A DNA stretch of 28,320 nucleotides, taken from positions 1 to 28,320 of IMG/VR virus record IMGVR_UViG_3300025435_000063; one strand, given 5' to 3'. This DNA comes from a virus. The number at the start of each line of letters is the position of its first letter. Position 1 is the first letter of the stretch. This document shows, piece by piece, positions 3,859 through 28,320 of this stretch. A model generated the notes under the pieces. That model was not told where the DNA came from. It worked only from the letters and a program-made list of their open reading frames with translations, and searched no databases. The position numbers were made by a program, and so were the translations under genes.

Positions 3859-3888
3859 AGTTTAAGGGCAACAATTTGCAAATGTCAA
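3859..3888 (-). promoter_or_regulatory. Main leftward (early) sigma70-type promoter
   Basis: On the minus strand a perfect TTGACA (-35, 3883-3888) is followed after 18 bases by TAAACT (-10, 3859-3864), or after 17 bases by TTAAAC. A start near 3852 would give a leader of about 37 bases to the ATG at 3815. It is the only consensus-quality element upstream of the 17-gene leftward block. Confidence 0.7.
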
Positions 3889-4008
3889 CACCATTTTAGA
3901 AATATTTTTTTCGGCGTGTTGCGGGTCAATTTGGCAGGTAATTAGTTGAAAGTTCAATCAACGGAAAGCCTGTGATATTGGCAGTCTGCCCCCGTGAGTG
4001 CTAATGGG

Positions 4009-4091
4009 TTGTCCACAGGTTGCCTGTGCCTGTGCATAAGTTGTGGATAGCGCGAGGGTGTGGAAAAGGTTGTGGATAATGTTGTGGATAA
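4009..4091. other. Cluster of DnaA boxes, probable replication origin
   Basis: Nine-base DnaA-box sequences occur at 4009-4017 (TTGTCCACA, plus strand, the form typical for actinobacteria), 4042-4050 (complement CTATCCACA), 4059-4067 (complement TTTTCCACA), 4071-4079 and 4083-4091 (both complement TTATCCACA, exact consensus). The last two are 12 bases apart in the same orientation. They lie in the only long non-coding region, between divergent transcription units, next to a repeat array and an AT-rich stretch. This suggests host DnaA takes part in starting replication here. The phage replication proteins lie outside this window. Confidence 0.7.
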
Positions 4092-4112
4092 GACAGTCCA
4101 CCCGCAATCACC

Positions 4113-4330
4113 CGACAACACGCCAAAACGCCCGCCAAAGGTTACTAATCGGTAACTTAACGCCCCAAAAGTCGACAAAACGGGTTGTAAATGCGGGCGT
4201 AATTGTCGACAATACCCGCAAGTAACCGACAAAACCACCCCGACAATTCGGACAATGCGAACAAAAAAATGCTATCAAATCGGACATTACTCACCAGTAA
4301 GTCGACAAATAAATCGGGCAAATCGGACAA
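4113..4330. repeat. Iteron-like array of CGACAA / CGGACAA repeats
   Basis: Short repeats in the same direction occur at 4113-4118, 4173-4178, 4207-4212, 4227-4232, 4241-4246, 4249-4255 (CGGACAA), 4281-4287 (CGGACAT), 4303-4308, 4315-4321 (CGGGCAA) and 4324-4330 (CGGACAA). The copy at 4207 is part of a perfect 12-base palindrome ATTGTCGACAAT (4202-4213). GTTAC/GTAAC (4141-4156) is a further inverted repeat. Such arrays usually bind a replication initiator or repressor. The area is free of genes on both strands. Confidence 0.65.
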
Positions 4331-4360
4331 TTCAACCCCAGGGTTTTTAACGTGGGTGTA

Positions 4361-4444
4361 TCTATACTATTACTATCCACCAAAATATTTTTTCTAAATA
4401 TAGGCGCCGAGGCTCAAACGGTAATTATTTTTAAACCAATATAG
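4361..4444. other. AT-rich stretch, possible unwinding element
   Basis: This part contains AAAATATTTTTTCTAAATAT (4381-4400) and TAATTATTTTTAAACCAATA (4423-4442) and is the most AT-rich segment near the DnaA boxes and the repeat array. In theta-type origins such a stretch flanks the initiator sites and melts first. The role is inferred from position. Confidence 0.4.
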
Positions 4445-4467
4445 GCTCTGACCTGCGGTTTTACTTA

Positions 4468-4516
4468 GTGTGACTAACATCACACGGTCCAAATAGGGAT
4501 AAAAGCGATTTATCCC
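4468..4516. promoter_or_regulatory. Two inverted repeats, possible operators of the rightward unit
   Basis: GTGTGA/TCACAC (4468-4473, 4480-4485, six-base spacer) and GGGATAAA/TTTATCCC (4496-4503, 4509-4516, five-base spacer) are both perfect. Just downstream, TAGTATATATAGG (4521-4533) could contain a -10 box of a rightward late promoter, though no consensus -35 is present. Dyads of this size and position are typical of dimeric repressor or activator sites. Confidence 0.45.
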
Positions 4517-4555
4517 GCCTTAGTATATATAGGGGTTAAAACAAAACAGCCCTGT

Positions 4556-4719
4556 CCGTTCGGCTCACGGCAGAGTGAGCCTCAAGCGAACGGCGCCGTT
4601 GAGACGAACTACGGTTTACCCAATGGCAGGCTCTACGGCCTGCCTTTAACCCATAGGGTTAGGCGCTGCAGGCGCCCCCCAAATACAACCCAAGGGTTGC
4701 CCATAGGCAACGCTTCGCG
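4556..4719 (+). promoter_or_regulatory. Highly structured leader upstream of the terminase gene
   Basis: Six hairpins follow one another: CCGTTCG/CGAACGG (4556-4562, 4587-4593) enclosing GCTCAC/GTGAGC (4563-4568, 4575-4580); GGCAGGC/GCCTGCC (4625-4644); AACCC/GGGTT (4648-4660); GGCGC/GCGCC (4662-4676); CAACCC/GGGTTG (4686-4699), which competes with GTTGCC/GGCAAC (4696-4711); and CGC/GCG (4711-4719). A 12-base palindrome AACGGCGCCGTT sits at 4589-4600. It ends just before the AGGAGA site of the terminase gene. It may be an RNA leader that controls late gene expression, or a DNA packaging or end-site (cos/pac), which often lies next to terminase. I know no named RNA family that fits. Confidence 0.5.
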
Positions 4720-4736
4720 GTAGGAGAAATAGGTTT

Positions 4737-6653
4737 ATGGCTAAACCAAAGTCAAACAACTATAAACTTGCCCCAGAGGCAACTTTATCCGCCCCAGAGG
4801 CTAAGAAGCGCCTTATCGCGCTGATTGCCGATGGGGTGAAGATTGAAGACGCTTGCCGCGCAGTCGGCAAGAGCGTCAAGTCGTATGAGTATTATCGCGT
4901 TTCAGATCCGCAGTTTAAAGAAGCAGTGGATCTTTCACGCGTCATCCAGAAGCGAAAAGGCGTAATCAGCGAAGATGACGCGAACATTAGTTTCGAAGAC
5001 TTTCGGGCGAAGTATTTAAACTCCCAGACCTTTCCTCACCAGCGCAACATCACCTCACTTCTTGAGGAAGGTGAGCCAGCCTGGCTTCACGGCAATATGA
5101 CCTATGAGCCAGGATTTAAGAACTACGTTCTTGTCAACATGCCACCTGAGCATGCCAAGTCCATGACAGTCTCCATTGACTATGTAACATATCGAATCGT
5201 TACAAATCCCAATGTGAGAATCAAACTTGTATCTAAGACTCAGGCTATGGCCAAGGAATTTCTTTACGCCATCAAGCAACGCTTGACCAGTCCGCAGTGG
5301 GCAGAACTTCAGCGTCGCTATGCTCCCGCCGAAGGCTTTAAGGCTACCGCTGAGAAGTGGACGCAAGATGCCATCTACCTTGAGCGTGACTCAGGTGAAA
5401 AGGATCCTACCGTCCAAGCCCTTGGTATCGGTGGACAGATCTACGGTGCGCGTGCTGATCTAATCATCCTTGATGACTGTGTAACTCTTGCCAACGCTGG
5501 CGAGTATGAGAAGCAGATCCGATGGATCCAACAGGAAGTTTTAACTCGTGTTGGTCCTACAGGTAAAATCCTCGTTGTAGGTACCCGCGTTGATCCTATG
5601 GATCTATACCGCGAAATGCGTAACCCTGAGCGGTACCCAGATAACAAGTCCCCGTGGACATATCTGGCTATGCCAGCCGTACTCGAATTTGACGATGATC
5701 CTGAAAAGTGGATCACGTTATGGCCAAAGTCTGATCGGCCATGGGATACTGATGAAACTCCAGCGGATGAAGATGGATTGTATCCGCGCTGGTCTGGTCC
5801 ACACCTTCGTCGTCGCAGAGGCTTAATTGACCCAAAGACTTGGGCTATGGTTTACCAGCAGCAAGATGTTGAGTCAACCGCCATCTTTGCCCCTGACTGC
5901 GTACGCGGATCAGTTTCAGGTATGCGAGCCATCGGCCCGCTTATTCCTGGCGCACCTGGTCATCCAGATAATTTGAACAGCCAATACATTGTTGCTTCAA
6001 TGGATCCAGCAATGTCAGGTGACACATTCTCTGTCATCATGTCAGGCGATAGAACCACAGGCAAGCGTTACCTGCTAGAAGCATCGCGCATGCCAGCACC
6101 TACACCACAGCAGATCAGAGACTTGATTTTCCACTGGACTGAGAAGTATCAGCCAAAGGTGTGGGTAATTGAGAAAAACGCTTTCCAGTTGTTCTTGACA
6201 CAAGATGAAAAGATCAACCAATTCTTAGCCTCACGCGGTATCCGCCTCGTTCAACACTACACAGGTGCGAACAAAATGGATGCTGAATTTGGCGTAGCCT
6301 CAATGGCACCACTATTCGGCTCGGTTGACAGCCAAGGCAAGCATCAAAAGAATAATCTCTTGGAACTGCCACGAGCCGATAACGAACATATCAAGGCTCT
6401 CATCGAGCAATTGATTACCTGGTCAGCAGGTACTAAAAATAAACAAGACGGTCCGATGGCCCTCTGGTTTGCAGAAACGCAGATGCGTGACTACATCAAC
6501 CAAGCAGGCGCATATGGCGGAACGTTTGTCAAGAATCCATTTGCTACTCGTTCTCAGTTGGCATCACGCAAAGTAATCAACTTGGAAGAATGGCAACAAA
6601 TGCAGGAGAAACTTGCATCTAACGGGGGATACATAAGTGGCAATAGATATTAA
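4737..6653 (+). CDS. terL: Terminase large subunit with N-terminal helix-turn-helix region
   Basis: This is the ATP-driven motor and nuclease that packages DNA through the portal. Residues 136-142 (PPEHAKS) form a variant Walker A loop, 240-247 (ADLIILDD) the Walker B, and GTR at 282-284 follows as coupling motif. The nuclease half has candidate metal-binding acids at D423 (SMDPAMSGD), E479 (VWVIEKNAF) and D571. At 638 aa it is longer than many TerL proteins, because residues 20-70 form an extra helical part (IEDACRAVGKSVKSYEYY) that resembles a DNA-binding helix-turn-helix of the small subunit. No separate small terminase gene is visible next to it. AGGAGA ten bases before the ATG supports the start. 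The gene ends 17 bases inside the portal gene. Confidence 0.93.
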   Translation: MAKPKSNNYKLAPEATLSAPEAKKRLIALIADGVKIEDACRAVGKSVKSYEYYRVSDPQFKEAVDLSRVIQKRKGVISEDDANISFEDFRAKYLNSQTFPHQRNITSLLEEGEPAWLHGNMTYEPGFKNYVLVNMPPEHAKSMTVSIDYVTYRIVTNPNVRIKLVSKTQAMAKEFLYAIKQRLTSPQWAELQRRYAPAEGFKATAEKWTQDAIYLERDSGEKDPTVQALGIGGQIYGARADLIILDDCVTLANAGEYEKQIRWIQQEVLTRVGPTGKILVVGTRVDPMDLYREMRNPERYPDNKSPWTYLAMPAVLEFDDDPEKWITLWPKSDRPWDTDETPADEDGLYPRWSGPHLRRRRGLIDPKTWAMVYQQQDVESTAIFAPDCVRGSVSGMRAIGPLIPGAPGHPDNLNSQYIVASMDPAMSGDTFSVIMSGDRTTGKRYLLEASRMPAPTPQQIRDLIFHWTEKYQPKVWVIEKNAFQLFLTQDEKINQFLASRGIRLVQHYTGANKMDAEFGVASMAPLFGSVDSQGKHQKNNLLELPRADNEHIKALIEQLITWSAGTKNKQDGPMALWFAETQMRDYINQAGAYGGTFVKNPFATRSQLASRKVINLEEWQQMQEKLASNGGYISGNRY

Positions 6654-20222: not shown

Positions 20223-22261
<2,039 letters not shown>

Positions 22262-22273
22262 TAAGATTGCGCT

Positions 22274-23350
22274 ATGGTCAAGATAGCAACCTACTCAATA
22301 TGTAAGAACGAATCTAAGCATATCCTACGGTGGGTTGAGGCAACGAAAGATGCCGACTATCGCATAGTAGTAGATACTGGATCTACCGATGGTAGCCAAG
22401 ATATGCTACGAGCATTGGGTGTAACTGTTCATCAGATTCACCTTAACCCATTTCGCTTTGATGTGGCTCGTAACACAGCCTTATCACTCGTACCAGAGGA
22501 TGCCGATGTCTGTCTTATCTTGGATATGGACGAAGTGCCAGAACCGACTTTCTTCAAAAAGGTCAGGAAAAAATGGATACCAGGTTCACATCTTGGCTGG
22601 ATCAGCATGGATACTGGGCAAAAATGGGAGAGGGACAGGCTTCACTCAAGGTTCGGTTGGTACTGGAAATATCCATGCCACGAAGTGCAATTGTGGTACG
22701 GGGAAGGCAGTACACGAGATTGCGATATCCGCAATGCCGTCATCCAACACCTACCAGACAATAGTAAATCCAGAGGACAATATCTAACGCTGCTAGAAAT
22801 GGCAGTCAAAGAAAATCCTCAAGATCCACGCATGTGGACATATATGACTCGTGAGTATTACTTCCACCATAGATGGCAAGATGTTATTGACTCAGCGGAG
22901 AAACAAATACCGCTCAATGGTTGGGATGTAGAACAAGCCGCTGTCTGCCGATGGGCAGGTGAGGCTTGCCACCAACTGGGCTTGCATGAACAAGCCACCG
23001 CTTGGTATGACAAAGGCGTACAACTTCTTCCCCGTGAAGGCGAATCGTGGTATGGCGTAGCAATTGACGCATATCGTCGTGAGGATTGGACAAGGTGTTT
23101 AGATGCTTCTATTAACGCTTTGGAACGTCCTCGCTCCGTCCATTACTGCTACGAATCAGCGGTATGGGACTGGAAAGCCTATGACCTTGCATCAATCGCT
23201 GCTTACAACCTCAAGCATATTGACGAAGCAATAGTCTTTGCCGAGCAAGCCGTAAAGGGCAATGGCGAAGAAACAGAGCGTATCCAACGCAACCTTAACT
23301 TCTTTAGACAGGTGAAGAATGCCACATCAACACACAGTAAAAATCCTTGA
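22274..23350 (+). CDS. Family-2-like glycosyltransferase with C-terminal TPR-like repeats
   Basis: The enzyme would transfer a sugar from a nucleotide donor. The first half is a GT-A fold: TYSICKNESKHILRWVEA, DTGSTDGSQDML at 34-45, RNTAL, and the metal-binding DMDE at 84-87 within LILDMDEVPEP. The C-terminal half has helix pairs typical of TPR repeats (WAGEACHQLGLHEQATAWYD; WYGVAIDAYRREDWTRCLDA) that often bind the protein target. It follows the collagen-like fibre by 13 bases and overlaps the next gene by 32 bases. A target in the virion, possibly the Thr-rich collagen, is likely but unproven; host surface modification is the alternative. Confidence 0.88.
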   Translation: MVKIATYSICKNESKHILRWVEATKDADYRIVVDTGSTDGSQDMLRALGVTVHQIHLNPFRFDVARNTALSLVPEDADVCLILDMDEVPEPTFFKKVRKKWIPGSHLGWISMDTGQKWERDRLHSRFGWYWKYPCHEVQLWYGEGSTRDCDIRNAVIQHLPDNSKSRGQYLTLLEMAVKENPQDPRMWTYMTREYYFHHRWQDVIDSAEKQIPLNGWDVEQAAVCRWAGEACHQLGLHEQATAWYDKGVQLLPREGESWYGVAIDAYRREDWTRCLDASINALERPRSVHYCYESAVWDWKAYDLASIAAYNLKHIDEAIVFAEQAVKGNGEETERIQRNLNFFRQVKNATSTHSKNP

Positions 23351-23762
23351 CTGGGGCTTAGACGCTAATTACGACTCAGTACCAATCAAGTACGGTTGCA
23401 CCAAGTGCGACGATGTATTTACAGAAATTCCCAAGTACGAAGAAGAACCATCTGAACATTCCAAACATACAGAATATGTAGATGGCTGCTTTGGCTGCAA
23501 GGCCAAGACGCTAGAACTTTCCACAGGTGATGCCGCAAGCAATAAAGGCATGTCAACCAAGAAGTGGAATGCAGAACTAGATGCTTATGCAGATGCTCGT
23601 TCACAAGGCATCCAACCTGCAGGTACAACCATGAAGGCTGTAGCAGAGGCTAAAGAAGCCAGCGACAAACTAGGCACAGCATTTGATGCAGGCACTATGC
23701 CAGCAGCAGCAAAGATTACCAAGCAAAGCGCAAAGGTAATGAAAGAAACAGGAGCAATCTAA
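23319..23762 (+). CDS. Zinc-ribbon protein, 147 aa
   Basis: The first 60 residues carry CTKC at 27-30, two histidines (H47, H50) and CFGC at 57-60, a good zinc-ribbon pattern. The rest is helical, with MSTKKWNAELDAYADARSQG and AGTTMKAVAEAKEASDKLG, a stretch that I have seen in a family of actinophage proteins encoded near the structural genes. Function unknown. It starts inside the glycosyltransferase gene (32-base overlap) and its stop overlaps the next ATG. Confidence 0.75.
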   Translation: MPHQHTVKILDWGLDANYDSVPIKYGCTKCDDVFTEIPKYEEEPSEHSKHTEYVDGCFGCKAKTLELSTGDAASNKGMSTKKWNAELDAYADARSQGIQPAGTTMKAVAEAKEASDKLGTAFDAGTMPAAAKITKQSAKVMKETGAI

Positions 23763-23947
23763 TGGCAGCAGCAAAAAAGGGTATGGGCTTCGCAGCCGCT
23801 CAAAAGTCAATCGCTAAAAAGTCTGGCGTATCAATGGAGTCAGCAGGAGCAATCCTAGCCTCATCAACACGCAAGGCTTCACCAGCAGCAAAGAAAGCAA
23901 ATCCAAATCTCAAGAAGGTAGCAATGCCTAAAAAGGGTGGTAAGTAA
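23762..23947 (+). CDS. Small very basic Lys/Ala-rich protein, 61 aa
   Basis: The product has about a dozen and a half lysines and no more than one or two acidic residues (MAAAKKGMGFAAAQKSIAKK; SPAAKKANPNLKKVAMPKKG), so it should bind DNA or another acidic partner. It could be a DNA-condensing or decoration protein in the virion. The sequence is too simple for a family call. The start overlaps the preceding stop as TAATG, and only one base lies before the next start. Confidence 0.75.
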   Translation: MAAAKKGMGFAAAQKSIAKKSGVSMESAGAILASSTRKASPAAKKANPNLKKVAMPKKGGK

Positions 23948-23948
23948 T

Positions 23949-24077
23949 ATGTGCATGTCATGCGGATGCAATAACAACGCAGTTAAGGTAACTGGCAAAC
24001 TAGACGGTAAGCCAACTGCTACACCAGAAGGTTCTTACGAGGGCGTGGGCGGCACCGTCACATGGCCAAGCAAGTAA
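23949..24077 (+). CDS. Small Cys-rich protein, 42 aa
   Basis: The frame begins MCMSCGCNNNAVKV, with three cysteines as CxxCxC close to the N-terminus, then a Gly/Thr-rich stretch (GKLDGKPTATPEGSYEGVGG) and a closing WPSK. The cysteines suggest a metal site or a disulfide link. It starts one base after the preceding stop and overlaps the next gene by 16 bases. Too short for a family assignment. Confidence 0.6.
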   Translation: MCMSCGCNNNAVKVTGKLDGKPTATPEGSYEGVGGTVTWPSK

Positions 24078-24178
24078 AGGCTACTGGCCAAGCAAACCAA
24101 ATAACCACTAAGACAATTGTCATCGGTGGTAAAGAAATAAAAGTATTGGCACATCCAAGTTCAGCGAAAGGTAGATAA
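24062..24178 (+). CDS. Very small basic protein, 38 aa
   Basis: The frame starts MAKQVKATGQANQITTKTIV and ends PSSAKGR. It looks like a single beta hairpin (TIVIGGKEIKVLAH) with basic tails. The ATG overlaps the previous gene by 16 bases and the stop overlaps the next ATG by one base, as in the other small genes in this unit. Placement is the only support. Confidence 0.55.
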   Translation: MAKQVKATGQANQITTKTIVIGGKEIKVLAHPSSAKGR

Positions 24179-24441
24179 TGACTATACCCACCTTGCAATA
24201 CAGTCTTAACAGACTGGCTGGCACCATTGTCAACGGGGTACCAACCCTTGACGCACAAGGTGCAGCCAATGTTTGGGCTGGTACTACAACACCGCTGGAC
24301 TTGGAAGGTGCGCTTAACTACCTTTATTCAAAGCGCTTTTCTGCACCAAACTACAACACCGACATGCCAGGTATTTTAAATAAACTTGCTGGCACTTATG
24401 GCTTGGGCGAAGCCTTAGCAGCCTCACTGATAGCATCATGA
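24178..24441 (+). CDS. Hypothetical virion protein, 87 aa
   Basis: The product begins MTIPTLQYSLNRLAGTIVNG and has a helical middle (LDLEGALNYLYSKR) and C-terminus (GILNKLAGTYGLGEALAASL). I have no firm family, though proteins of this style (short N-terminal strand, a WAGTT turn, then helices with LNxLAGTxGxxxxxA) are often seen next to connector genes in phages. Stop and next start overlap as ATGA. Confidence 0.7.
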   Translation: MTIPTLQYSLNRLAGTIVNGVPTLDAQGAANVWAGTTTPLDLEGALNYLYSKRFSAPNYNTDMPGILNKLAGTYGLGEALAASLIAS

Positions 24442-25328
24442 CTCTATTTTCAGATTTAATTGACGAGACTGCTTTATCTCTGACAGGTTACACCAACCGT
24501 CAAGATCAGGCTACATATCTTACTGCCCCAATGGCAGCAACAGACCTAACCTTTCAGGTTGCCGATGGCACAGTGCTAACTCGTGGCTTGGTTGAGATTG
24601 ATGAAGAATTGATCTGGGTTGATTCTTTCGACCGTACCAGCAACACAGCAACCATTCCTGCCTATGGTCGTGGCTTTAGAGATACAACCGCTACAACCCA
24701 CACATCAGGTACACGGGTAACTGTTACTCCATCATTCCCACGCTCAGTCATTCGCCGCAATATTCAGCAGGCAATTGATGCTGTGTATCCAGATCTATTC
24801 GGCGTGTACTACACAACCTTTACATTCCAAGCAGCGGTTACAACCTATGTCTTGCCAGATGAAGCGGTAGATGTATTGGCTGCCTCATGGCAGACCATCG
24901 GCCCTTCTAAGGAATGGCTACCAATCCGCCACTATCGTGTAGATCGTACTGCTAACCCATTGGTATGGAACAGTGGTAAGACTATCTCGATTCGTGAAGG
25001 CATTATCCCTGGCCGTCAAGTCATGGTGACTTACACCAAGAAGCCAACCGTGCTTCAGCAAGATTCAGATGACTTTTCAATGACTGGCCTTGAAGATACT
25101 TGCCGTGAGGTAATTGTCCTTGGTGCCGCCTACCGTACCGCAATGTACCTAGACTTTGGTCGTGTACCTGCGCTATCTGCAGAAGCAGGCTCAATGGGTC
25201 AAGCCAATCCAATTGGCTCAGCAGTCAACATTGGCCGTGCTATCCAGAACCTTTATCAGCAACGGCTGCAAATTGAGATTCGCCGTCTCCAAGAGCAGTT
25301 CCCACCACGCACCCACTACACCTCGTAA
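24438..25328 (+). CDS. Probable head-tail connector / tail base protein, 296 aa
   Basis: Two parts can be seen. Residues 20-105 form a beta domain: ATYLTAPMAATDLTFQVADG, then LVEIDEELIWVDSFD and GRGFRDTTATTHTSGTRV. A helical part follows (FPRSVIRRNIQQAIDAVYPD; GLEDTCREVIVLGAAYRTAM; IGRAIQNLYQQRLQIEIRRL), with a beta insertion between. Connector proteins that sit under the portal show such helices. The position between capsid and fibre genes agrees. The exact family is not certain; a tail tubular protein is another option. Confidence 0.6.
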   Translation: MTLFSDLIDETALSLTGYTNRQDQATYLTAPMAATDLTFQVADGTVLTRGLVEIDEELIWVDSFDRTSNTATIPAYGRGFRDTTATTHTSGTRVTVTPSFPRSVIRRNIQQAIDAVYPDLFGVYYTTFTFQAAVTTYVLPDEAVDVLAASWQTIGPSKEWLPIRHYRVDRTANPLVWNSGKTISIREGIIPGRQVMVTYTKKPTVLQQDSDDFSMTGLEDTCREVIVLGAAYRTAMYLDFGRVPALSAEAGSMGQANPIGSAVNIGRAIQNLYQQRLQIEIRRLQEQFPPRTHYTS

Positions 25329-25337
25329 GGATAGTAA

Positions 25338-25733
25338 ATGCCAGCGGTTAATAGATATTACACATCCACAGCGCAAGATACTACTCTTACCACTTCGATC
25401 AATTCAACTGGTACAACTATTCCTGTAAGCGCATTGGTCGGTTATCCGTCCCAATATCCTTACATTGTTGCCCTTGACTATAACAATGCTTCAGAGGAAT
25501 TGGTCCAGGTTAACGGCGTTACGGGTCTAACCCTGAATGTCACCCGTGGATTTAACAGCACTAACCCAACCAATCATGGCGTTGGTGCAATCGTGCGCCA
25601 TGTAATTACCGCCCAAGATATGACAGAAGCACAGCAGCATATTGCCGCTGAAAGCAATGTTCATGGCGTTGTTGGTCAACTTGCTGGCATGGGCGATGTA
25701 GTGGCTACAACATTTTTGACAATGGGCGGATGA
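25338..25733 (+). CDS. Virion protein with connector-type beta domain, 131 aa
   Basis: The protein repeats the beta domain of the 296-aa product before it: TTLTTSINSTGTTIPVSALV, then EELVQVNGVTGLTLNVTRGF, and a Asn-His-Gly segment like the THTSGTRV part (TNHGVGAIVRHV). A short C-terminal helix (AQDMTEAQQHIAAESN) follows. It is likely a structural part near the connector or tail base. GGATAGT before the ATG is a weak ribosome binding site. Confidence 0.7.
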   Translation: MPAVNRYYTSTAQDTTLTTSINSTGTTIPVSALVGYPSQYPYIVALDYNNASEELVQVNGVTGLTLNVTRGFNSTNPTNHGVGAIVRHVITAQDMTEAQQHIAAESNVHGVVGQLAGMGDVVATTFLTMGG

Positions 25734-25759
25734 CCCAACTACCGAGAAAAGGAAGATAA

Positions 25760-26110
25760 ATGGCAACAGCATATAAGGTACTTGGGCAGGCGGTGCCAGC
25801 GGCTACAACGGCTGCAGGAGCATCCTCTAACCTAACCACTCTTTACACACCGTCTGGCACAGCAGCGGCTGTAATTTCAAGCATCGTCATCACAAACCAA
25901 TCAACATCAACAATCACCTATCGTGTGTCAGTTCGTGTTGCTGGTGCTGCAGATACTCCAAAGCAATATATCGCATATGATATAGTTCTTGGTAGCAATT
26001 CAACAGATACTTTGACACTTGGAGTAACTCTGGCTAACACTGACATTCTGTCAATCGCCGCATCAAGCACATCAGTTTCCTTCAGCGCTTTCGGATCGGA
26101 AATTTCATAA
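25760..26110 (+). CDS. Beta-rich virion protein, 116 aa
   Basis: The pattern ISSIVITNQSTSTITYRVSV, then KQYIAYDIVLGSNSTDTLTL and LANTDILSIAASSTSVSFSA with a closing FGSEIS, matches a widespread phage protein type with one beta barrel encoded next to tail and fibre genes. Its job is probably structural (tail or fibre connector). AAAAGGAAG before the ATG is a good ribosome binding site. Confidence 0.75.
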   Translation: MATAYKVLGQAVPAATTAAGASSNLTTLYTPSGTAAAVISSIVITNQSTSTITYRVSVRVAGAADTPKQYIAYDIVLGSNSTDTLTLGVTLANTDILSIAASSTSVSFSAFGSEIS

Positions 26111-26111
26111 T

Positions 26112-27437
26112 ATGACTGTTAACCGTCACCCTAGCACTGGGTCGGCTGTTACCGTTAAGCAGTGGCGTTATACTGCCACTGGCGGAGAAACAACCCTCTC
26201 AGGTACAGATGGCTTTAGCCAAAGCCTAGCCTATACGGTAGGCGCAGAAGAAGTTTATGTTAATGGCGTACTTCTTGAGCGTGCCGTAGATTACACCGCA
26301 ACCACAGGTACTTCTGTCGTTCTAACCAATGCTTTGGTTGCTGGTGATATTGCGACTGTAATGTCTGCAAATGCCTTTAACGTGGCTAACGCCATTCCTA
26401 ACTCAACAGTAACCGCCAAAGGCGATTTGATCGTAGGTAATGGCGCAGCCAGCGTCACTAACCTCGGCGTAGGCGCTGACGGGTCAACACTCGTGGCAAA
26501 CTCTTCTGCTGGTGGTGGGGTAAGTTGGGCAGGGCCGATTGCTACGGCTGGTAAAAACAAAATAATCAATGGTGATTTTTCTATCTGGCAACGGGGAACA
26601 ACAGTTGTCACAAATGCTGGATACGGCTACCCATCAGACCGATATTTTGGTTATTCGGCTGGAAGCCAGTCTTGGACAAAAACAACTGATGCCCCAACAA
26701 ATGTAGGGCTTACCTATTGCATCTCTAACTCAACCTTGGTTGCCAGTTGGGTAATTGGTCAGATGATTGAGTTGGCTGCTACTGGCGTTTCTCAATTTAC
26801 ATCACCAAACTGGACATTTTCTTTTTACGGAAAATTTGATAACGGAAGAACCATAAATATCATTGCTCATTATGCCGATGATACTAGTGGAACAAATAAC
26901 TCAAGCAATCTAATATCCACAAGCGTTACTGGCACAGGCAGTTGGCAGCGATATACCGTAACTACAACTTTAGGTTCTAGTGTTTCTCCAAACGGAACAA
27001 ATAAAGGCCTTCGTGTTGTTATTTACGATTTGTCAGGAACTTCAAGCACAACCGTAAGAACAACAGGTTGGCAGTTTGAGCAAGGTAGCGTGGTAACACC
27101 ATTCACAACTGCTACTGGCACACTTCAGGGGGAGTTAGCCGCTTGCCAGAGGTACTTGCCAGTTTATTCAGGCGGTGCTTTGTCGGGTTATGCCTATGGA
27201 ACCAATTCAACTCTTTACGCCTTCAAGTTTCCAGTCACGGCTCGTGTTGCTCCAACCTCCATAACGGTTGTAAGTAATCCAAATATGTATGCTCTAAACA
27301 CGGCAACCAATGCTGCTCCAACTTTAGATTTAACGGCGATTGATGGGGCAGATTTGTTAGGAAGCATTACCATCGTTGCTGGACAAGGCAGTCGAATGAT
27401 GGGTGGAACAATTTTATTCAACGGATGTGAGTTGTAA
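26112..27437 (+). CDS. Tail fibre / receptor-binding protein A, 441 aa
   Basis: The N-terminal 90 residues have the fibre pattern SQSLAYTVGAEEVYVNGVLL, then RAVDYTATTGTSVVLTNALV, as seen in many phage tail fibres. Next come a triple-beta type repeat stretch (VTAKGDLIVGNG) and a typical stalk-to-head linker KNKIINGDFSIWQRGT at about 148-163, followed by a jelly-roll, sugar-binding-like domain (WTFSFYGKF; WQRYTVTTTL; TTGWQFEQGSVVTPFTTATG) and a C-terminal domain. It would contact host surface glycans. A second protein shares the linker and jelly-roll parts. Confidence 0.85.
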   Translation: MTVNRHPSTGSAVTVKQWRYTATGGETTLSGTDGFSQSLAYTVGAEEVYVNGVLLERAVDYTATTGTSVVLTNALVAGDIATVMSANAFNVANAIPNSTVTAKGDLIVGNGAASVTNLGVGADGSTLVANSSAGGGVSWAGPIATAGKNKIINGDFSIWQRGTTVVTNAGYGYPSDRYFGYSAGSQSWTKTTDAPTNVGLTYCISNSTLVASWVIGQMIELAATGVSQFTSPNWTFSFYGKFDNGRTINIIAHYADDTSGTNNSSNLISTSVTGTGSWQRYTVTTTLGSSVSPNGTNKGLRVVIYDLSGTSSTTVRTTGWQFEQGSVVTPFTTATGTLQGELAACQRYLPVYSGGALSGYAYGTNSTLYAFKFPVTARVAPTSITVVSNPNMYALNTATNAAPTLDLTAIDGADLLGSITIVAGQGSRMMGGTILFNGCEL

Positions 27438-27586
27438 TGGCTACAGTAACTAATTATGAAAACACTCTTGGCGAACCAATGATTATGGTCGTCAATGATG
27501 ACGGCACAACTTGGTCAGGCACTAAAGCGGCATACGATGCCAGCACACTCCCATCCAACTCTTCTACACCACAGGCAGGTGAATAA
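27437..27586 (+). CDS. Small protein between two fibre genes, 49 aa
   Basis: The frame starts MATVTNYENTLGEPMIMVVN, then DDGTTWSGTKAAYDAS and a Ser/Pro-rich tail. It overlaps the previous stop as TAATG and ends directly before the next ATG. A fibre chaperone or accessory role is suggested only by place. No family recognised. Confidence 0.65.
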   Translation: MATVTNYENTLGEPMIMVVNDDGTTWSGTKAAYDASTLPSNSSTPQAGE

Positions 27587-28320
27587 ATGAGTCGCGCACA
27601 ATTAACCAGCATGACGGCAGACAATGTTGTTCAGGAAACACTTGTTGGCTCAACTGGAAATTCCATTAAAGGTGGTTCAGTAGCTCCGTTCGTGGCGGGT
27701 AAGAATAAGATTATCAATGGTGATTTTAATATCTGGCAGCGTGGTACTTCATTTTCATCAATTTCTTCTGGAACTTTTACCGCAGACCGATGGTTTGTAA
27801 ATTTTGACGGTTCAGGAGCAACACGCTCAGTATCTCAACAAACCTTTACTCCCGGCTCTGCCCCAGTTGCAGGATATGAAAGTTCTTATTTCTTACGCTT
27901 GGCAACAACGGTGGCTGGTTCTGGTCAAACTTATTCCAATCTGGCTCAACGCATAGAGAATGTTCAAACTTTTGCCAATCAAACAGTAGTAGTTTCATTT
28001 TGGGCAAAAGCAAATGCTGCTATTTCCTTGGGAACAGTTTTTGGTCAGAACTTCGGTTCGGGTGGTTCATCTTCTGTTTATACAGTTGGCCCATCTTTCA
28101 CACTTTCAACATCGTGGGCAAGATATACAGGTTATATAACTCTTCCAAGCATTAGCGGTAAAACAGTTGGCACAGGTTCTTATCTTGAATTAGATTTGAC
28201 TTGGCCGCAAAACTCTACATTTACCTTGGATGTATGGGGCGTACAACTTGAGGCTGGTTCAGTAGCCACTCCATTCACCACCGCATCAGGCACATTCCAA
28301 GGAGAGTTAGCCCTCTGCCA
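27587..28320 (+). CDS. Tail fibre / receptor-binding protein B, partial (runs off right edge)
   Basis: At least 244 codons are open from ATG 27587 to the window end. The first 40 residues differ from fibre A, being short (MSRAQLTSMTADNVVQETL), but KNKIINGDFNIWQRGT and a jelly-roll-like part (VVVSFWAKANAAISLG; STSWARYTGYITLP; VWGVQLEAGSVATPFTT) correspond to fibre A, ending in FQGELALCQ, which matches LQGELAACQ there. The remainder of the gene is outside the window. It is likely a second receptor-binding fibre or an accessory head domain that assembles with fibre A. Confidence 0.85.
   Translation, partial: MSRAQLTSMTADNVVQETLVGSTGNSIKGGSVAPFVAGKNKIINGDFNIWQRGTSFSSISSGTFTADRWFVNFDGSGATRSVSQQTFTPGSAPVAGYESSYFLRLATTVAGSGQTYSNLAQRIENVQTFANQTVVVSFWAKANAAISLGTVFGQNFGSGGSSSVYTVGPSFTLSTSWARYTGYITLPSISGKTVGTGSYLELDLTWPQNSTFTLDVWGVQLEAGSVATPFTTASGTFQGELALC

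Follow-up and report, generated by a model that had tools for sequence, protein, structure and literature searches.

A predicted chromosome-end region with an exchangeable cassette of DnaA or SOS boxes in a freshwater actinophage

Comparison of a DnaA-box cluster in a freshwater actinophage with the corresponding DNA of its relatives suggests that the segment is a chromosome-end region, in which a direct terminal repeat adjoins an exchangeable cassette of DnaA or SOS boxes whose role is most likely regulatory; we give this interpretation about an even chance of being correct. The window, that is, the whole stretch of DNA analysed (28,320 nucleotides), is the entire IMG/VR record IMGVR_UViG_3300025435_000063. 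Because the cluster adjoins the predicted packaged end and relatives carry SOS boxes at the same place, an exchangeable host-sensing site at the chromosome end is more likely than the plasmid-like replication origin proposed in an earlier sequence-only reading. The segment is best filed with terminal-repeat regions, which are of a known kind; the exchangeable DnaA/SOS cassette is new.

The non-coding gap that holds the segment extends from about 3882 to 4736 and is the sole long one in the window, as had been noted before. To its right the late genes begin on the forward strand, with the gene for the terminase large subunit (terL, phrog_38; 4737-6653) followed by portal, capsid and tail genes; to its left runs an operon of small genes, a WhiB gene and a transglycosylase-like gene. 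The earlier description of early genes running left and late genes running right is accurate for the late genes; it fails for the genes of helicase, primase, a Cas4-like exonuclease, RusA and a sigma factor, which follow the tail genes on the rightward strand. Nearly all of the window is also contained in a 48.6-kb record (G001, 3300025390_000012), which matches positions 1-21480 at 99.97% and positions 21087-28320 at 100%.

Megablast of the window against cultured phages found no match, and neither did a search of Rfam. The terL product is nevertheless related to those of two groups of cultured phages. It is 49% identical to that of the Planktophila phages LanE43AprE7 and F5, which lyse 'Ca. 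Planktophila' (PMC10202952) and which likewise have WhiB, sigma-70, helicase and primase genes and CRP-like sites left of terL. It is 45-47% identical to those of the Streptomyces cluster BF phages (Beephvirinae: FlowerPower, ZooBear and WRightOn), which share the order of terminase, portal, large gene, capsid and tail, the DnaB-like helicase, the primase, the Cas4-type exonuclease, and, to the left of terL, non-coding DNA that has bracket motifs, CGGACA repeats and a CRP-like site; they differ in their higher GC content, their large tRNA array and the location of their replication genes on the other strand. The phage is probably a virulent freshwater actinophage akin to the cluster BF phages.

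Counted with a relaxed consensus, six of the 13 DnaA-type boxes in the 28,320-base window lie within 83 bp (4009-4091): TTGTCCACA on the forward strand (4009-4017) and, on the reverse strand, TTATGCACA (4031-4039), CTATCCACA (4042-4050), TTTTCCACA (4059-4067) and two copies of TTATCCACA (4071-4079 and 4083-4091) that are 12 nt apart from start to start. In 200 dinucleotide shuffles of the window, the biggest cluster in the same span comprised four boxes and was reached once. Equally dense clusters elsewhere would have counted against a special role for this one, and no second cluster was found in the 48.6-kb record. The DnaA-box feature is thus real and no artefact, as the sequence-only reading held, although that reading had counted five boxes rather than six. 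Since the boxes exceed chance and distant relatives also have them at this place (see below), their motifs make binding by host DnaA likely.

The cluster ends 4 nt short of the predicted left end of a terminal repeat. ZooBear, FlowerPower and WRightOn have exact direct terminal repeats of 274, 253 and 264 bp, respectively, and 253-bp repeats have been described for FlowerPower and four others (PMC9753666). Their left cuts (marked by a caret) read GGACA^GTCCC, GTACA^GTCCC or GGACT^GTCCC, and their right cut falls about 23 nt past GGGTTGTTAA, as GGGTTGTTAA-N23^AGTCCC. The window has corresponding motifs at matching positions, with AGACA^GTCCACC at 4096 on the left and, on the right, the conserved core GGGTTTTTAA (4341-4350, forward strand), 23 nt and then TATTAC^TATCCACC at 4373/4374; from this homology, a direct terminal repeat of 278 bp is predicted at 4096-4373 on the forward strand. 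A homologous terminase, the same gene order and bracket motifs at a matching distance left of terL all point to a direct-terminal-repeat phage of the cluster BF type, and the distance of the brackets from terL is similar in the window, its relatives and the Streptomyces phages. Among relatives the right bracket is highly conserved; the left one has the correct spacing in 27 of 61 lineages, where shuffles give 1.4, and was found with the pattern used in under half of the close relatives. In these the predicted repeat has a median length of 223 bp.

The position of the DnaA boxes relative to the left cut varies. In the window and in lineages L002 and L074, the cut comes 3-5 nt after the end of the last box, whereas in more distant relatives a pair of boxes lies about 20-30 nt inside it, within the repeat. 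An alternative left cut motif in the window, GGCA^GTCTGCCCCC (3983-3992, forward strand), may correspond to the cut of those distant relatives, to judge from sequence comparison; a cut at 3983 would put the window's boxes inside the repeat too.

The repeat array and the AT-rich stretch (4374-4440) of the sequence-only reading are both present as described. The 'iteron-like' CGACAA, CGGACA and CGGGCA repeats (4113-4329, forward strand) fall within the predicted terminal repeat, with CGACAA at 4113, 4173, 4207, 4227, 4241 and 4303 and CGGACA at 4249, 4281 and 4324; CGGACA is enriched in the terminal regions of the Streptomyces BF phages as well as in those of the window's group. The DNA just right of the predicted cut is a conserved AT-rich flank, TATCCACCAAAATATTTTTTCTAAATATAGG (4374-4404, forward strand). 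The DNA left of GGGTTTTTAA is hypervariable in relatives (for example L006 and L076), and the short repeats differ from phage to phage (for example CGGTTATG and TATGTCC).

On comparison of close relatives, the DnaA boxes prove to occupy an exchangeable segment, a putative host-factor cassette at 4008-4093. Two lineages, L005 and L002, have a terL 100% identical to the window's, hardly differ from the window between about 4094 and the end of terL, and are close to it for about 80 nt left of 4008; their sharp difference from it is limited to 4008-4093, and the swap boundary lies at GACAGTCC. Where the window has six DnaA boxes, L005 has instead two palindromes, CGAACAGATGTTCG and CGAACAAATGTTCG, and L002 has both palindromes together with three DnaA boxes. 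All listed palindromes of this type reach the 14-mer CGAACN4GTTCG, which we take to be the consensus of the actinobacterial and Bacillus SOS box, although the search required only 12 bases. Across relatives there are 25 of them against 1.7 expected. The record of the window's phage lacks them, and this site is the only one with such palindromes in the closed genomes G002 and G004. DnaA and SOS boxes were also considered as strict alternatives, an idea that was rejected because their association is not significant and three lineages (L002, L074 and L364) carry both.

The recurrence of DnaA boxes at this place is uneven. Pairs upstream of terL occur in 19 of 121 lineages and in none of the shuffles, yet at least two boxes are present in only three of the 81 lineages with terL identity of at least 74%, so that conservation among related phages, by which the sequence-only reading had proposed to judge the boxes, is absent from most close relatives. 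In the group with 30-60% terL identity, 17 of 39 lineages have at least two, mostly as tandem TTATCCACA boxes that are spaced 12, 13 or 20 nt apart and as a rule lie 400-620 nt upstream of terL; typically AAATATTTGCTAAAG-type DNA follows the tandem pair about 130 nt on. Four distant positives (L170, L194, L202 and L215) were found by a box-pattern search and the remaining ones by a terL search; because the former selects for boxes, it was set aside as evidence of conservation and the terL-selected set was used. On a FastTree tree of terL from 113 lineages, there are 13 changes of state for DnaA boxes and 11 for SOS boxes, so DnaA boxes are easily lost. Clusters of DnaA boxes are common among phages in general, two TTATCCACA boxes 12 nt apart being present in at least 119 viral contigs, most of them outside this phage group. 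In L170, a tRNA-Phe gene (2658-2731) is found between the DnaA-box region and terL.

Promoters are predicted on both sides of the cassette and repeat. The leftward one (TTGACA, 18-nt spacer, TAAACT; 3859-3888, reverse strand) has a TTGACA-type box that is found here in many relatives. The DnaA boxes are upstream of its -35 box by about 120-200 bp, a long way for a classical operator, and most SOS boxes are equally distant; direct repression of this promoter by overlapping boxes is therefore not claimed. On the right, a CRP/GlxR-like palindrome, TGTGACTAACATCACA (4469-4484, with its GTGAN6TCAC core at 4470-4483), precedes the predicted -10 element of the late promoter, TATATATA (4524-4531, forward strand). 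The core occurs in 101 of 121 lineages, including the Streptomyces phages, against 0.95 expected, and the palindrome is located at -250 to -430 relative to terL in relatives. The centre of the CRP-like site and TATATA are 47 nt apart in 65 of 98 lineages and 43-44 nt apart in a further 21, so that the TGTGAN6TCACA palindrome has the near-constant distance from a predicted promoter that a CRP/GlxR site should have. GTGAN6TCAC is accordingly read as a putative CRP/GlxR-type activator site near the promoter, and its placement suggests that a Crp-type activator of the host acts at the late promoter. Between this site and TATATA lies an inverted repeat, GGGATAAA/TTTATCCC (4496-4516); its letters differ in distant relatives, where an inverted repeat often stays. 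The terL leader (4538-4736, forward strand) is predicted to be structured (z = -2.9), with tandem short hairpins that are kept in close relatives.

From this arrangement we infer that the cassette is bound by protein and has a regulatory role. The direct terminal repeat of about 278 bp would carry the CGGACA and CGACAA repeats, probably as terminase or end-processing sites, and would be flanked by the promoter of the leftward small-gene/WhiB operon and by the rightward late promoter with its upstream CRP-like site. The cassette abutting the left cut, which is filled by DnaA boxes here and by SOS (LexA) boxes, both kinds or neither in relatives, would most likely let DnaA or LexA, as reporters of the replication or DNA-damage state, bind the right end of the chromosome, where the bound host factor may influence the neighbouring leftward operon or what becomes of the end itself. 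Regulation is thus the most likely function of the cassette, and roles as an origin or an injection stop are possible. More tentatively, and with rather less than an even chance of being right, a family of virulent actinophages may read the state of the host through a swappable cassette at the packaged end (DnaA or SOS boxes that are swapped as one block at the terminal cut site, beside a late promoter with a CRP-type site), or else may have host DnaA start synthesis at the concatemer junction and so duplicate the terminal repeat.

A precedent for joint control exists at Escherichia coli uvrB, where DnaA and LexA act on one promoter (PMC6015884). As there, boxes for both proteins, here read from sequence, occur in one control region; the uvrB boxes are chromosomal and overlap promoters, whereas those of the phages lie upstream, at the phage chromosome end. 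In phage lambda, DNA near the origin is bound by the DnaA of the host (PMC3985674). Among the cultured relatives, the terminal regions of the Streptomyces BF phages have neither tandem DnaA boxes nor SOS boxes, and neither kind was found in the region of Planktophila phage F5. For freshwater actinophages of this group, which are abundant and for the most part not in culture, the comparison provides a testable prediction of the chromosome ends. It also suggests that sites for host regulators of the cell cycle and of the response to DNA damage are exchanged among such phages at these ends. Should DnaA or LexA indeed bind there, phages of the dominant freshwater bacteria may couple their development directly to replication or stress in the host.

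That the segment is instead a DnaA-dependent origin is unlikely, though it has evidence in its favour. Host DnaA would bind the boxes, open the AT-rich DNA at 4374-4440 and load the host or phage helicase, perhaps at a concatemer junction, which would provide packaging with a second copy of the terminal repeat. The cluster is real, and its counterpart in the distant lineages is typically a tandem pair followed by AAATATTTGCTAAAG-type DNA. Moreover, a search of ten near-complete relatives for PolA homologues yielded none, so that replication probably depends on proteins of the host. However, the repeats and the AT-rich stretch, which the sequence-only reading took for parts of an origin, form part of the predicted terminal repeat and of the DNA beside it, and relatives that have no DnaA box retain them; the replication gene set (helicase, primase and RusA) is common to phages with and without boxes, the helicase of G002, which has only three boxes, being 100% identical; and the boxes are easily lost. 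The cumulative GC-skew minimum that had been expected at the cluster is found 19-35 kb from terL in near-complete relatives, in most of them near the boundary between late and replication genes. Because the shape of the skew differs between these relatives and the Streptomyces phages, it is used only as an absence of support, and because skew is a weak guide in phage genomes of small size, the boxes may still have an accessory role in initiation near the concatemer junction. The V-shaped skew of G002 was considered as the mark of a mid-genome origin with termini here, and this was rejected, the maximum in other relatives lying 33-38 kb from terL at a convergent gene junction. Of the proposal that host DnaA begins replication here, the binding by DnaA is thus likely to stand, whereas the interpretation as a replication origin, like that as a plasmid, is weakened. 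DnaA boxes, repeats and AT-rich DNA are insufficient to call a phage origin.

An injection-control site is improbable. Phage T5, which is unrelated, has a long terminal repeat that carries genes, in contrast to the non-coding repeat of about 278 bp predicted here. Its injection stop signal contains repeats, inverted repeats, palindromes and DnaA boxes (2026 paper; PMC13250531), and repeats, palindromes and DnaA boxes likewise lie near the terminal repeat predicted here, where they might hold the incoming DNA, as has been proposed for the T5 signal; the replacement of DnaA boxes by SOS boxes is left unexplained by such a role. Slightly less probable again is a DnaA sink, by which multiplying phage DNA with six boxes per genome would titrate host DnaA and halt host initiation: boxes that come and go are to be expected of an accessory trait, but many relatives have only two, and a sink does not need a fixed position beside the end of the repeat. 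Least credible of all is the origin of a plasmid prophage with iterons and a Rep protein, for although boxes, repeats and AT-rich DNA follow in the order known from oriC and iteron plasmid origins, there is no skew minimum here, the boxes are dispensable among relatives, neither an integrase (tyrosine or serine) nor ParA was found in ten near-complete relatives (whose records may be incomplete), a terL-profile scan of 84,980 genomes yielded nothing beyond a Lentzea match of 36% and a single MAG contig, and the repeats match those in the terminal repeats of virulent Streptomyces phages. Lacking integrase, ParA and PolA homologues, these relatives give no sign of the plasmid persistence, or of the ParA or partition gene, that the sequence-only reading had envisaged.

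Two further observations concern the records. A MAG labelled as a beta proteobacterium includes a contig of this actinophage group (L339, terL 86%), probably through a binning error. The 48.6-kb record that covers the window contains two alternative tail-fibre modules that are 74-78% alike (L304-L306), of which the window has one (21480-28320); this difference suggests that allelic tail modules are present in the population.
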